DNA from: Nitrosomonadaceae bacterium
GTDB taxonomy: Bacteria; Pseudomonadota; Gammaproteobacteria; Burkholderiales; Nitrosomonadaceae
Assembly: GCA_002721545.1 (NCBI GenBank)
Contig: PBKR01000011.1
Span: forward strand, 109,034 to 173,033
Direction of reading: 5' to 3'
Length of the DNA: 64,000 nt
Shown here: one piece after another, positions 53,577 to 60,258 of the stretch
Numbering within the stretch: the first letter of the stretch is position 1
Layout of the letters: each line of letters opens with the position of its first letter
Translations under genes and position numbers: made by a program
Notes under the pieces: model-generated
Seen by the model: the letters and a program-made list of their open reading frames with translations, nothing else
Database searches by the model: none
What the model was told of the DNA's origin: nothing

Positions 53577-54015
53577 GGGAATCGAGCAATTATTATCTTG
53601 AATAGTTAGGGTAAATTTTTTATGAAACTATATAAAAAAAGATTTCACACTGTTTTCATAGGCTTGATGCGAGATCACTTTTTCTAATAATAAAACCTGT
53701 TAGGATTTGCATAGATTCAAGTGATTTTGTAATGATAAAGAAGATTGGTATTAAAGAAATTTTTAGATGTGTTATTAGTCACTATCCTAGCAAGGTACTA
53801 AGTATTGATTTAATCTGCTTTATTTCCTCCAAGAATAACAAAATATAGTATTTGTTACCCTTATTTGTTCCCTATTGCTCTTTAAATGAGCGTAAATTCT
53901 CATATAATATAGCTAGCGTATTTTATTCGGTTAGTCGAAAAAAACTATTTCCAAGGAGGCTCTTTTAGTTTTAAGAAAAAATATTGTATTTTCTTAGTTA
54001 GAGGGTTATACTATA

Positions 54016-54030
54016 TGCAACTATGTTGCA
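54016..54030. promoter_or_regulatory. Palindrome TGCAAC-TAT-GTTGCA, candidate Zur/Fur-family operator
   Basis: Perfect 6-bp arms, ends 12 nt before the Fur-family ATG; near-identical copy at 54944-54958. Confidence 0.5.
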
Positions 54031-54042
54031 AAATAAATCAAA

Positions 54043-54465
54043 ATGCTAGCTAATTTTTATGACCAGGCGGAAGAGATGATCTCCCAAATCGGAGAACGAG
54101 TCACTTCCAGAAGAGTTCTTATTCTTAGTATTCTGCTTGCCGAGAAGCAGGCTATTTCCCATAGTGAAATTGAAGAACATATAACTGATGATAAAAAACT
54201 TAACCGCGTTACGCTTTATCGAATCCTTGAATGGTTAAATAAGAATGGGTTGATTCATAAAATAGTAAGTGGTGATCGAAAGTGGCGTTTTCGTGTCAAT
54301 ATCTATAGTGGTCTACATAAGCATGCCCATTTTAAATGCTTAAGATGTTTAACAGTTATATGTCTAAATAATGTAAAAGCTGAATATAACTTGCCTTTGC
54401 CAGAAGGTTATCAGTCTCAGGAAATGGATCTGACTATAAGAGGTCTTTGTGCAGTATGTTCCTAA
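54043..54465 (+). CDS. Fur-family regulator, probably Zur-type
   Basis: GERVTSRRVLILSILLAEKQAISHSEIEEHI...VTLYRILEWLNKNGLIHKI; two CxxC (CLRC, CAVC); adjacent ZnuD-like receptor. Confidence 0.85.
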   Translation: MLANFYDQAEEMISQIGERVTSRRVLILSILLAEKQAISHSEIEEHITDDKKLNRVTLYRILEWLNKNGLIHKIVSGDRKWRFRVNIYSGLHKHAHFKCLRCLTVICLNNVKAEYNLPLPEGYQSQEMDLTIRGLCAVCS

Positions 54466-54492
54466 ATAATAGTTAATTCTCATAGAATTGTA

Positions 54493-54819
54493 ATGTTAAT
54501 ACGAAAATTCCTTTATTTTGCTTTGGCGATAACGATCGTGTCAGTGCCAGTTTTCCAGGCAGCACATGCGCTAACTCATGTTTCTGATATTGATACAATT
54601 AGTTATATTCAGGTTGATAATGACCATCAAGAAGATGATGATTTTGATCAAATATGCTTAGATTGCCTTGCGTTAACGGCGTTTACTATTGTTGCTGCAA
54701 TTTTTAACTATTTCTTAATCAATCTTATTAGGCAGGGTGTTTTATGTAAATTAAGACATATGCCTATCCATGTTCATTTCTTTTCAAAATATCATAAACG
54801 AGCACCCCCGCTAGTATAG
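54493..54819 (+). CDS. Small exported/membrane protein with His/Asp segment, DUF2946-like
   Basis: AAHALTHVSDIDTISYIQVDNDHQEDDDFDQICLDCLAL..., C-terminal KRAPPLV. Confidence 0.5.
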   Translation: MLIRKFLYFALAITIVSVPVFQAAHALTHVSDIDTISYIQVDNDHQEDDDFDQICLDCLALTAFTIVAAIFNYFLINLIRQGVLCKLRHMPIHVHFFSKYHKRAPPLV

Positions 54820-54908
54820 TTTCTGACGATTTCTCTTAGTTATTCTTTATCTATATCTATTTATTGTAATAGATTATTAAAGCCAGTTTATAAATTTGGG
54901 GGTGTTAA

Positions 54909-57059
54909 ATGTCGCAAAGGAAAAAAAGCATTTTTAATTTAAATGCAACATTGTTGCTATTAGTCCATTGTTTCTCATTTATGAGGACTAAATATTGCAT
55001 TTGGTGTAATGCAGGGTCTGTTTTGGTAATTTTAAAAAACTTAGCTGCTTTAGTTTTAGTTTTATTCTGTATGAAACTAAGTATTCAAAACGTACAAGCT
55101 GATGATAAGCATCCTCATAAACAAATAGAATTACCAGCAGTTACAGTACTAGCTAGCCCATTTGAGAGTCATACTGAATTAAATATGGCTCAGCCAGTTA
55201 CTATATTAAAAGGTGATCGATTACTACACAAACAAGAATCACAACTAGGAGATACTCTATCAGGAGAGCTTGGTGTTGCTTCCAGTTCTTTTGGGCCTGG
55301 AGCAGGTCGACCGATTATTAGGGGATTAGATGGTCCACGAATTCAAATCTTGGATAATGGTATAGATACGCTGGATGTGTCATCTCTCAGTGCAGACCAT
55401 GCTGTTACAATTGAATCGATTAATGCTTCAAGAATAGAAATTCTACGCGGCCCCTCAACACTCATGTATGGTGGGGGTGCAATAGGTGGCATAGTGAATG
55501 TAGTTACTAACAAGATTCCTAGGAAGATATTTAAGAAATCAACTGGTAGTTTTGAAGGGCGTGGAAATACATCTACACAAGAGAAATCAGGATTCTTTGA
55601 TATAAGTAGGAGTATCGGTAATCATATATCATTAAATGCTAGTGGTTTTAGGAGAAAAACTAATGATTACGGTATTCCTGGAAGGCAAAATAGAAATGAA
55701 CCAGACCATGGTAAAAAAGGGGTTGTCAAAAATAGTGGGATAGATACTGGAGGAGGGTCCATTGGCGCATCAATTATAGGTTCAAGAGGATATATAGGGG
55801 GATCACTCTCACGAACGGAAAGTAAATATGGGGTTCCTAGTGAAGAAGCACCAACGATTGATCTTGTAAAGAATCGTTATGATATAGCTGGAGAATTAGC
55901 TCGCCCTGTTATTGGTTTTGAAAAAATGAGAGTGAAGATGGGATACAGTGATTATCGGCATACAGAATTTGAAAGTACAGGTGAGGCAGGATCAGTTTTT
56001 GCTAATCAGGGAATTGATAGTCGAGTCGAACTTATACATAGACCAGTAAAAGGTTGGAAAGGTGTAGTTGGCGTTCAAGTTAAAGATCGTGATTTTTCTG
56101 CAGTAGGAGAAGAAACGATTGTACCAAAAACAAATTCAAGGAATACCAGTGTTTTTCTGATTGAAGAGCGACATTGGAATAATTTCCATCTTGATGTGGG
56201 TGCGCGTTATGAGCATGCATCAGTAGATCCAAAGTCTGCTGACAATTCTCGTAAGTACGACCTTTATGGCGTATCGATTGGTGGGAAATGGCAACCTATA
56301 GATGGATATAGTATTGGGCTCTCTGGAACTAGAGGGCAGCGTGCACCGGAAACAGAAGAGCTCTATTCAAATGGCGCGCACCATGCCACAGAAACGTTCC
56401 AAACTGGCGACAGTACACTTAAAAAAGAAACCTCAAATAATCTTGATCTTTCATTAAGTAAAAACTCAGGGGCGATAAGGTGGAAGGGAAATTTCTTTTA
56501 TAATTATTTTGAGAACTATATTTACTATGCTAATACGGATGCTGATAGCAATGGTATCGCAGACCGTGTTGATGAAGAGGGTGCTGTAGACCCAGATGGG
56601 GAACTTCTAGTTCAGAACATTGCTCAGAAAGGTGCAACTTTTTATGGAGTAGAAGCAGAAATAAAGTTTATTTTTAAACCTAAGGTATTAGACTTGCGTC
56701 TCTTTACAGATTATGTGCGTGCAAGACTAAATAGTGGAGGCAATATACCCCGTACTACTCCACAAAGGTTCGGGCTCGAATGGAATCATAGATCTGGCCC
56801 TTGGAAACTTAATTTAATGACTACTCATATATTAAAACAAAATAAACGTGCAGATTTAGAGACAAGTACTAGTGCGTATACAATGATAAATATATTTGCT
56901 GGTTATACTATGAAAATGGATCGATCTACTAAGCTTACAGTTTTTTTACAAGGTAAAAATTTAATGAATGAGGATATACGTATTCATAATTCATATCTAA
57001 AAGATTTTGCACCGCGTCCAGGTCGTGCTCTTGTACTAGGGTTTAGAGGGAGTTTTTAA
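54909..57059 (+). CDS. TonB-dependent receptor, ZnuD-like
   Basis: LPAVTVLASPF; GPGAGRPIIRGLDGPRIQILDNGIDTLDVSSLSADHAVTIE...IEILRGPSTLMYGGGAIGGIVNVVTNKIP; C-terminal LGFRGSF. Start uncertain (54909 with GGGGG upstream, or 54979). Confidence 0.88.
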   Translation: MSQRKKSIFNLNATLLLLVHCFSFMRTKYCIWCNAGSVLVILKNLAALVLVLFCMKLSIQNVQADDKHPHKQIELPAVTVLASPFESHTELNMAQPVTILKGDRLLHKQESQLGDTLSGELGVASSSFGPGAGRPIIRGLDGPRIQILDNGIDTLDVSSLSADHAVTIESINASRIEILRGPSTLMYGGGAIGGIVNVVTNKIPRKIFKKSTGSFEGRGNTSTQEKSGFFDISRSIGNHISLNASGFRRKTNDYGIPGRQNRNEPDHGKKGVVKNSGIDTGGGSIGASIIGSRGYIGGSLSRTESKYGVPSEEAPTIDLVKNRYDIAGELARPVIGFEKMRVKMGYSDYRHTEFESTGEAGSVFANQGIDSRVELIHRPVKGWKGVVGVQVKDRDFSAVGEETIVPKTNSRNTSVFLIEERHWNNFHLDVGARYEHASVDPKSADNSRKYDLYGVSIGGKWQPIDGYSIGLSGTRGQRAPETEELYSNGAHHATETFQTGDSTLKKETSNNLDLSLSKNSGAIRWKGNFFYNYFENYIYYANTDADSNGIADRVDEEGAVDPDGELLVQNIAQKGATFYGVEAEIKFIFKPKVLDLRLFTDYVRARLNSGGNIPRTTPQRFGLEWNHRSGPWKLNLMTTHILKQNKRADLETSTSAYTMINIFAGYTMKMDRSTKLTVFLQGKNLMNEDIRIHNSYLKDFAPRPGRALVLGFRGSF
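54944..54958. promoter_or_regulatory. Second copy of palindrome: TGCAAC-ATT-GTTGCT
   Basis: Same GCAAC-N3-GTTGC core as 54016-54030; at the 5' end of the TonB receptor ORF. Confidence 0.45.
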
Positions 57060-57180: not shown

Positions 57181-58170
57181 ATGGTTATTAATTTTAGGTA
57201 TGACAATAGAATTTTTATTCTATTTTTTCTGGCAATAGGTATTTTATTCTCGTTTCAAGTAGAAGCATCGGTAAGAGAATATTGGATTGCTGCAGAAAAA
57301 GTATCTTGGGATTATGCGCCCTCTGCGCAGAATCAGATTGTGCCTGATGAAGGTCTTGGAGTTTGGGGTGGTTCCTTAAAATACAAAAAATATCGTTATA
57401 TAGGCTATACAGACAATACCTATGCTGTCCCTGTGCCTCAAGATGATTGGATGGGAATATTAGGCCCACAGATACGGGGTGTAGTGGGAGATAATATAGT
57501 TGTTCATTTTTTAAATAGGACAGATCGTCCACTATCTATGCATCCTCATGGGGTACTATACAGCAAAGATAACGAAGGAGCTGATGGCCATAGTGCAGGG
57601 GCGCATGTTTTACCAGGAGAATCTTATAAATATATATGGGCTGTTGATGAGGCTTCTGGTCCAGGGCCCAATGACCCTTCATCAATTGTCTGGCTCTACC
57701 ATTCTCATGTTCTAGGGGAGGAAGAGATGAACTTGGGTTTAGTTGGTGCGATTATTATTACCAGAAGAGGAATGGAAAGCTCTCCTTCGAATCCTTCTCC
57801 GTATGATGTAGATCATGAATTTATTTCATTATTCATGATTTTTAATGAGGAAAATGGTGAAGAAAGTGGATTAAAACATGCAATTAATGGCCGTATTTTT
57901 GGCAACCTTAATGGATATAGCACTAAGATAGGCAAGCGTGTGCGATGGCACGTAGCAGCTCTAGGTAATGAACAGGATAACCATACTATTCATTGGCATG
58001 GGCAAACAGTTCTTAATCAGGGGCATCGAACTGATGTCATAGAGGTGTTTCCTGCTAGTATGGTTTCGGTTGATATGATTCCTCGTTCGCCAGGCAATTG
58101 GCTTGTACATTGTCATGTTAATGATCATATGCTTGCAGGAATGTCTACACGTTGGCATGTATTGCCCTGA
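57181..58170 (+). CDS. Two-domain multicopper oxidase (NcgA/BCO-like)
   Basis: HPHGVLY, WLYHSHV, HTIHWHGQ, WLVHCHVNDHMLAGM; 329 aa with signal peptide. Confidence 0.88.
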   Translation: MVINFRYDNRIFILFFLAIGILFSFQVEASVREYWIAAEKVSWDYAPSAQNQIVPDEGLGVWGGSLKYKKYRYIGYTDNTYAVPVPQDDWMGILGPQIRGVVGDNIVVHFLNRTDRPLSMHPHGVLYSKDNEGADGHSAGAHVLPGESYKYIWAVDEASGPGPNDPSSIVWLYHSHVLGEEEMNLGLVGAIIITRRGMESSPSNPSPYDVDHEFISLFMIFNEENGEESGLKHAINGRIFGNLNGYSTKIGKRVRWHVAALGNEQDNHTIHWHGQTVLNQGHRTDVIEVFPASMVSVDMIPRSPGNWLVHCHVNDHMLAGMSTRWHVLP

Positions 58171-58231
58171 ATATGAAACATGTTTGAAAAAGAAATATTA
58201 AGACATAACTGCGATTAACATTAAATCATTC

Positions 58232-58951
58232 TTGATATTAAGCATGAAATATTGCTGCCTAATTATTCCCTTATTTATTTCAAATTTAGTAAATGCATCA
58301 GGAAGTTTATCGATTACTGTACCCGATACAATGGAAGAGCGGGTGAAGGCATGTACTATTTGTCATAATAATAAAGATAGAATAGGTCGTGACGCATATT
58401 ATCCGCGTATAGCTGGTAAGCCTGCTGGTTATATTTTCAATCAATTAAAACATTTTAGGGATGGGCGGCGCTATTATCAGCCTATGGCTATTCTGCTTGA
58501 AAATATGTCAGATGAATATATGCTAGAAATAGCGCATTATTTTTCTTCCTTACAGTTGCCATACCCACCACCTGAAGAAATTAGTATGCAACCAGAAGAA
58601 ATTGAACATATCAATATGCTTATTCGTTTAGGGGATCTAGATAGGAGTATTCCAGCATGTCAATCATGTCATGGAAAATTATTAATGGGGATTAAGCCAT
58701 TTATTCCAGGCTTACTTGGATTACCGCTTGCTTATATTTCTGCTCAATTCGGGAGTTGGCGTAATGGAGGGTTAATGCGAGGCCAAGATTCTAATTGTAT
58801 GTCAGAAATTGCAAATTTACTTACTGATAAAGAGGTTGTTGCTATTGCAAAATGGCTTGCTATGCAACCCGTATCTGGGGAGCCAGATCAATCTGAATTA
58901 CTTTTACCTAAGCTTTTTCATCGTTGTAGTGAACTTATGTATTTGAAATGA
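58232..58951 (+). CDS. Diheme c-type cytochrome
   Basis: CTICH and CQSCH motifs, signal peptide; immediately downstream of the MCO. Confidence 0.9.
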   Translation: MILSMKYCCLIIPLFISNLVNASGSLSITVPDTMEERVKACTICHNNKDRIGRDAYYPRIAGKPAGYIFNQLKHFRDGRRYYQPMAILLENMSDEYMLEIAHYFSSLQLPYPPPEEISMQPEEIEHINMLIRLGDLDRSIPACQSCHGKLLMGIKPFIPGLLGLPLAYISAQFGSWRNGGLMRGQDSNCMSEIANLLTDKEVVAIAKWLAMQPVSGEPDQSELLLPKLFHRCSELMYLK

Positions 58952-60258
58952 AAAGTATACAGTATGAATCTAAGATCTATATACAGAGGAAAATAGTATC
59001 AGCATGTAGTTTTGCGGCATCTTTTTTCATTCTATTATCATTGTTTGGATCTGTTTTTGCAGATCCTATACAACCTGCCCATCATATTTCTAATCAAAAT
59101 AGATTAGTTGGCTCATATCTTGCTCGAGTTGGAAACTGTATAGGGTGCCACACTGCTAGGGGCGGGGATTTATTTGCTGGTGGAAGAGAAATGCATACTT
59201 CATTTGGAATTTTTATTACACCGAATATAACGCCAGATAAAGAAACAGGAATTGGAAATTGGGATAAGAGTGATTTTTGGAGGGCTCTTCATCAAGGAGA
59301 ATCTCGTAATGGTCGTATGCTTTATCCTGTTTTCCCTTACCCTCAATATACTAAGATAACAAGGAAAGATTCAGATGCAATCTTTGATTATCTTATGTCT
59401 CTGAAGCCTATTGTAAATGAGAATGCTCCTAGTAGAGTTTTCTTCCCATATAATTTAGAGCCGCTTTTGTATATATGGAGAAAACTTTATTTTAAAAAAG
59501 GAGTATTTAAACCAGATTTATCTAAAAGTAAAGAATGGAATCGAGGTGCTTACTTAGTGGAAGGACTTGGACATTGTAATTCATGTCATTCTTCTCGTAA
59601 TTTATTAGGAGCAAGTCAGAAAACAAAGCATATTGGAAAGAAGATGACAGGTATGGGTTGGTATGCGCCATCCTTAATTTCTAGACTAGAGGCGGGTAGT
59701 AGAGGGCTGGAAATAAATGAGATTATTGAACTTCTTACATCTGGCATATCTAAGAATGCGGTAGCTTCTGGCCATATGGCAACCGTGATTAGGCAAAGCC
59801 TTCAGTTTATGTTGCCACAGGATATACGTGCTATTGCTATATATCTTAAATATATTGGAAGAGAAAATTCTGATATTGCACCTGCAGAGAGTTTTCCAGT
59901 TTTATCTAAGAAAGTACGTAGCCAGCTTTCAGAAGGAGGTAAGATATATACGAAATACTGTGAAGGTTGTCATCAGTCTTCTGGTAGAGGTATTCCTGGT
60001 ATTTATCCGCCACTAGCAGGAAATCGAAGTGTGACTATGTCTTCACCCCTTAATACAATATTAAGTGTTATGCATGGAGGATTCCCACCAACTACAATTG
60101 GAAATCCACGGCCATATGGGATGCCACCTTTTCAGCAAATATTTCATGATAAAGAAATAGCCCTAGTAGTTTCTTATATCAGGAATGCATGGGGAAATCA
60201 TAGTAGTTTAGTTACAGAAATTGATATTGAACGAAGTAGAAATAGTAACAGAGATTAA
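58948..60258 (+). CDS. Triheme c-type cytochrome (alcohol/gluconate-dehydrogenase cytochrome subunit-like)
   Basis: CIGCH, CNSCH, CEGCH; FITPNITPDKETGIGNWDKSDFWRALHQG; overlaps the previous ORF by 4 nt. Confidence 0.9.
   Translation: MKSIQYESKIYIQRKIVSACSFAASFFILLSLFGSVFADPIQPAHHISNQNRLVGSYLARVGNCIGCHTARGGDLFAGGREMHTSFGIFITPNITPDKETGIGNWDKSDFWRALHQGESRNGRMLYPVFPYPQYTKITRKDSDAIFDYLMSLKPIVNENAPSRVFFPYNLEPLLYIWRKLYFKKGVFKPDLSKSKEWNRGAYLVEGLGHCNSCHSSRNLLGASQKTKHIGKKMTGMGWYAPSLISRLEAGSRGLEINEIIELLTSGISKNAVASGHMATVIRQSLQFMLPQDIRAIAIYLKYIGRENSDIAPAESFPVLSKKVRSQLSEGGKIYTKYCEGCHQSSGRGIPGIYPPLAGNRSVTMSSPLNTILSVMHGGFPPTTIGNPRPYGMPPFQQIFHDKEIALVVSYIRNAWGNHSSLVTEIDIERSRNSNRD

Follow-up and report, generated by a model that had tools for sequence, protein, structure and literature searches.

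Two copies of a short palindrome in a contig of a Nitrosomonadaceae bacterium (order Burkholderiales in GTDB terms), one directly in front of a gene for a Fur-family regulator and the other at the 5′ end of a gene for a TonB-dependent receptor, raise the question as to whether the regulator controls both genes through them and, if so, which metal it responds to. The initial annotation of this DNA had read the pair as a candidate lineage-specific Zur operator, and we followed this reading up in the window (the whole stretch of 64,000 nucleotides that was analysed), in the rest of the genome and in related genomes. The features of the locus are collected in Table 1. Box 1 ends 11 nt 5′ of the regulator ATG and box 2 is found 34 nt into the longest ORF of the receptor; the two are spaced 928 bp apart in one cluster, in which the genes for the regulator, a small protein and the receptor share one direction.

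Table 1 Features of the regulator and receptor locus, with positions counted from the first letter of the window
Feature	Position	Strand	Remarks
-35 element TTGTAT of the regulator promoter, 17-bp spacer	53984..53989	+	Read directly; TTGC at the same distance in orthologues
-10 element TATACT	54007..54012	+	TATANT- or TTACAAT-like element at that distance in family loci
Probable operator box 1, ATGCAACTATGTTGCAA, ATGCAAC-TAT-GTTGCAA	54015..54031	.	Exact core in 25/25 family orthologues
Predicted Zur-like Fur-family repressor, 140 aa, helix NRVTLYR	54043..54465	+	PF01475, E=1.8e-12
Small predicted membrane/secreted protein, His-rich C-terminus	54493..54819	+	Conserved position in family loci
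Probable operator box 2, ATGCAACATTGTTGCTA, ATGCAAC-ATT-GTTGCTA	54943..54959	.	Before the receptor; 15 family loci with a box likewise placed
ZnuD-like TonB-dependent receptor, proposed start ATG 54981	54981..57059	+	Longest ORF starts at 54909; start placed by comparison

The palindrome pair and its shared core GCAAC-N3-GTTGC are as the initial annotation had described them, except that each palindrome extends one base further at either end. Counted in the window only, the pair is unremarkable, with 2 matches against 1.18 expected when one mismatch is allowed and 33 of 100 shuffles reaching the same number. Across the genome of the organism (2.01 Mb in 37 contigs) the exact core occurs three times and the reversed control pattern not at all, and the third copy, read by eye, is coding sequence in a fatty-acyl-AMP-ligase-like ORF. 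A scan of the same genome with three mismatches gave 100 sites against 58 for the control and was discarded as being of no use for regulon calling. The decisive evidence that the pair is real is its conservation. Of 61 relatives, 40 have the regulator or a protein related to it, and absence of the motif from orthologous loci, which the initial annotation had named as evidence against its reading, is not what we observe, since each of the 25 loci examined from the organism's own family has the exact core ahead of the regulator, at 9-29 nt from the aligned regulator start. A second box precedes the ZnuD-like receptor in 15 family loci.

The position of box 1 with respect to the promoter is conserved as well. 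The window promoter reads TTGTAT-N17-TATACT, and throughout the 25 family loci the core lies directly 3′ of a conserved -10 element with the -35 element around 17 bp further up. As box 1 begins 2 bp past the -10 element the predicted transcription start falls inside it. This promoter call rests on conservation and not on a strict promoter scan, which returned no sigma-70 site at box 1, and no clear promoter could be assigned at box 2.

The regulator matches the FUR domain above the cut-off and is thereby a member of the Fur superfamily. Its best solved-structure match by sequence is E. coli Zur (4mtd), and its structural model has the Fur fold (pLDDT 84) with solved Fur, PerR and Zur structures as the best matching folds. 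It scores 36.3 bits against NF008646, the NCBIfam Zur equivalog, for which the curated cut-off is 167, and it reaches the cut-off of no curated NCBIfam model. Only two Fur-family proteins are found in the genome, a canonical Fur and this Zur-like regulator. Nitrosomonas europaea has three Fur homologues, one of which groups with Zur (PMC3050691). As described below, operator-like sites occur at zinc-uptake and zinc-sparing genes including the regulator's own, which is the functional mark of a Zur, and the regulator, though no member of the E. coli-type equivalog, would work like a Zur.

The small membrane-like protein starts 27 nt after the regulator, with which it is probably co-transcribed. 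No Pfam family matched the window protein over the cut-off, while one orthologue matched PF11162 (DUF2946) at 0.0031, under the cut-off, making it at most DUF2946-like. For the receptor NF038289 (ZnuD) is the best family by far (E=1.8e-136, 456.5 bits) though short of the cut-off of 950 bits, and of the solved structures ZnuD (4rdr) alone matches it at E<=1e-10. After the receptor follow genes for a multicopper oxidase and two cytochromes c (57181-60258). Two sibling genomes (L109, L110) share this gene order and other genera do not.

In a tree of 62 Fur-family proteins, those with an R[VI]T[LVI]YR recognition helix (n=47) split from those with PPTVYR (n=8) at a support of 100/98, E. coli and Xanthomonas Zur grouping with the latter. 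The box tracks the recognition helix across loci. The core is found upstream of 32 of 47 regulators of the RVT clade and of 0 of 6 of the PPT clade (Fisher p=0.0024), GTTATA-type boxes upstream of 0 of 47 and 4 of 6 respectively (p=5e-5), and since the sequences are related both p values are only indicative. The background count of 195/6811 is an overestimate, the loci having been retrieved on account of the box. The conventional-helix Zur genes of the order carry boxes of the GTTATA type, which the initial annotation had found the palindrome not to resemble. One PPTVYR Zur adjoins an apparent ABC-3-type permease gene (read by eye), as in znuABC arrangements. For 15 of the 47 RVT-clade regulators no box was found within 160 nt upstream, and several of these appear to be operonic or to have boxes further downstream.

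The two clades also differ in their putative sensing site. Both retain the structural CxxC pairs, C99 and C102 being present in 47/47 and C136 and C139 in 45/47 proteins of the RVT clade, and the recognition-helix arginine (E. coli Arg65) is invariant. The E. coli-type sensory set of H77, C88, H96 and E111 is retained only in part, H77 being kept in 43/47 and H96 in 35/47, whereas C88 is lost, mostly to Asn, E111 is replaced by Cys in 45/47 and an HxH is added. In the structural model the recognition helix has R55 in its first turn, at the place of Pro60 in E. coli Zur, and this residue may help to read the GCAAC box.

We then looked at the distribution of the box outside this genome. An exact scan of 300 genomes of the order for the 14-letter box ATGCAAC-N3-GTTGCAT gave 15 sites against 1 for the control, some of them inside ORFs and chance-like. 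Counts with five-base arms were near background in larger genomes, and specificity is therefore limited to the 14-letter box. The initial annotation had suggested asking whether the motif falls upstream of zinc-related genes, and in other families and orders boxes do stand before such genes (ZIP, ZrgA, CobW GTPase, DksA). In some neighbourhoods the regulator leads into the receptor, in others into a DksA-like gene and CobW GTPases, the latter with two boxes around 38-39 bp apart (L179, L180, L184). Further ones contain CobW beside an ABC transporter, a cluster of ZIP, HisI and CobW, or ZIP by itself, and in yet others ZrgA or ZIP is placed opposite the regulator. In genome G055 the regulator and a ZIP gene flank a box with one mismatch, and in another family a ZIP gene has TTGCAACCTTGTTGCAT 10 nt 5′ of its ORF. 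The ZIP promoter of the sibling genome G005 contains a perfect box in an insert of around 22 bp just upstream of the conserved -10 element (L154:1130-1146), and as the insert is absent from three siblings (L137, L135, L151) this promoter has apparently been recruited into the regulon. In G004 and G005 a perfect box also stands around 30-40 nt 5′ of the gene for DAHP synthase (L089:2998-3014, L090:2995-3011), the first step of aromatic synthesis and an unexpected candidate target.

When 229 genomes were scanned across the class, 4 sites were obtained against 2 for the control. All 4 lie outside the order, and two of these adjoin a Fur-family protein with the same helix together with ZrgA or NicO and CobW (L246:1501-1517, L249:1458-1517). 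The pairing of regulator and box thus spans many families of the order and extends to at least two genomes from outside it, and the term lineage-specific used by the initial annotation was too narrow. The organism itself has a ZIP gene without a box, and a ZnuA was not found in its genome, so that the recognised regulon there is the regulator's own cluster and the link to zinc depends on the similarity of the receptor to ZnuD, which is under the curated cut-off.

That the boxes are operators of this regulator but that its effector is copper, manganese or iron in place of zinc seems to us improbable. With two E. coli sensory ligands (C88, E111) missing, the sensory residues would on sequence alone permit another metal, and copper is hinted at by the multicopper oxidase and cytochrome genes downstream in the window genus and by the DUF2946-like protein nearby. 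The copper reading, prompted by the oxidase genes, was however set aside as these are not neighbours of the receptor in other genera. In other genomes boxes stand in front of genes for ZIP, ZrgA, CobW GTPase and DksA-like proteins, all of them connected with the supply of zinc or with its shortage, and the best solved relative of the regulator by sequence search is Zur. Binding of the palindromes by some DNA-binding protein other than the Fur-family neighbour has still less to recommend it and we hold it to be highly unlikely: short inverted repeats are used by several regulator families, but this one is found with the regulator gene in different families and orders, and conventional-helix Zur genes are preceded by boxes of the GTTATA type instead.

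Box 2 raises the question of where the receptor begins. In several other genera the box lies around 30-35 nt 5′ of the receptor ATG and outside the ORF, while in the window genus the ORF is longer and takes in the box, its additional residues showing poor conservation except at the box. The idea that the repeat arose by chance and box 2 is merely receptor coding sequence (N-A-T-L-L) deserves next to no credence, for although the one-mismatch count within the window is not unusual and the longest ORF takes in box 2 and has a GGGGGTG-like ribosome site 5′ of 54909, it is contradicted by the conservation in orthologues and by the location of box 2 in those other genera. The initial annotation had considered 54909 probably too early, should the box be an operator, and had suggested that translation may begin near 54979. 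An ATG is present at 54981, 21 nt past box 2, and the receptor start is best placed there; the orthologues favour this part of the earlier proposal and do not amount to proof of it.

We conclude that the two boxes are very probably the operators of a zinc-responsive repressor of a distinct Zur clade which controls its own gene and that of the ZnuD-like receptor. The operator reading of the initial annotation is thereby upheld, with the core kept at the regulator, over the predicted transcription start and before zinc genes elsewhere. We infer binding, repression and zinc as the effector, the last from the target genes, the sequence kinship to Zur and the ZnuD-like receptor. A zinc-bound dimer would sit on ATGCAAC-N3-GTTGCAW with each monomer reading one GCAAC, which fits the R-N-N-N-Y half-site pattern of E. 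coli Zur. One box would be occupied at each promoter. At its own promoter the dimer would cover the transcription start and block initiation, and at box 2 it would repress the outer-membrane receptor. When zinc becomes scarce the dimer would leave the DNA, and all three proteins of the cluster (regulator, small membrane protein and receptor) would be expressed.

Several known systems resemble this one in part. Neisserial Zur boxes are of the TGTTAT...ATAACA type, and the neisserial ZnuD system likewise has a ZnuD-like TonB receptor as Zur target (predicted here), although the receptor in the window scores under the ZnuD cut-off. The predicted autogenous control is common among Zur proteins. 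E. coli Zur, in which each monomer reads R-N-N-N-Y with Arg65 on the purine (PMC4219657), resembles the regulator in its Fur fold, structural Cys4, recognition-helix Arg, zinc-uptake targets and half-sites. It differs in having a PPTVYR helix against DRVTLYR or NRVTLYR here and a GTTATA-type box against GCAAC-N3-GTTGC, while the present regulator has mostly Asn at C88, Cys at E111, an extra HxH and, with 140 aa, a shorter C-terminus. Two papers on the FurC/Zur regulon of Cupriavidus metallidurans describe zupT and cobW1-3 as members and two boxes before the cobW1 operon (PMC10882993, PMC11340326), which to that extent parallels the ZIP importer, the CobW GTPases and the paired boxes before dksA/cobW operons seen here. 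For Burkholderia, probably of the same order, a Zur box in RegPrecise has been cited (PMC10563805), with Zur autoregulation as predicted here and, unlike here, Zur beside znuABC. Our literature search, in which the RegPrecise logos and the Cupriavidus operator were outside the comparison, returned no paper linking the letters of the box to Zur, and the box may have been described earlier, for example in RegPrecise.

The data are suggestive, at about even odds, of a second and so far undescribed Zur subfamily of beta- and gamma-proteobacteria with an operator class of its own (ATGCAAC-N3-GTTGCAT), a helix changed from PP to RV, a re-composed zinc-sensing site with Cys at E111 and none at C88, and regulons of ZIP, ZrgA, CobW and TonB-receptor genes in place of the Zur-ZnuABC arrangement. 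What is supported by the comparisons is a putative Zur-like autorepressor with its own operator class that is not a curiosity of one lineage. It would make zinc regulons readable from sequence in a group of bacteria with Zur proteins that score below the cut-offs of curated models, and would supply predictions as to the pairing of helix and operator and the residues that sense zinc. As helix and operator appear to have been switched together and the sensing site rebuilt, the two clades may serve as a natural experiment on the evolution of specificity in the Fur family.
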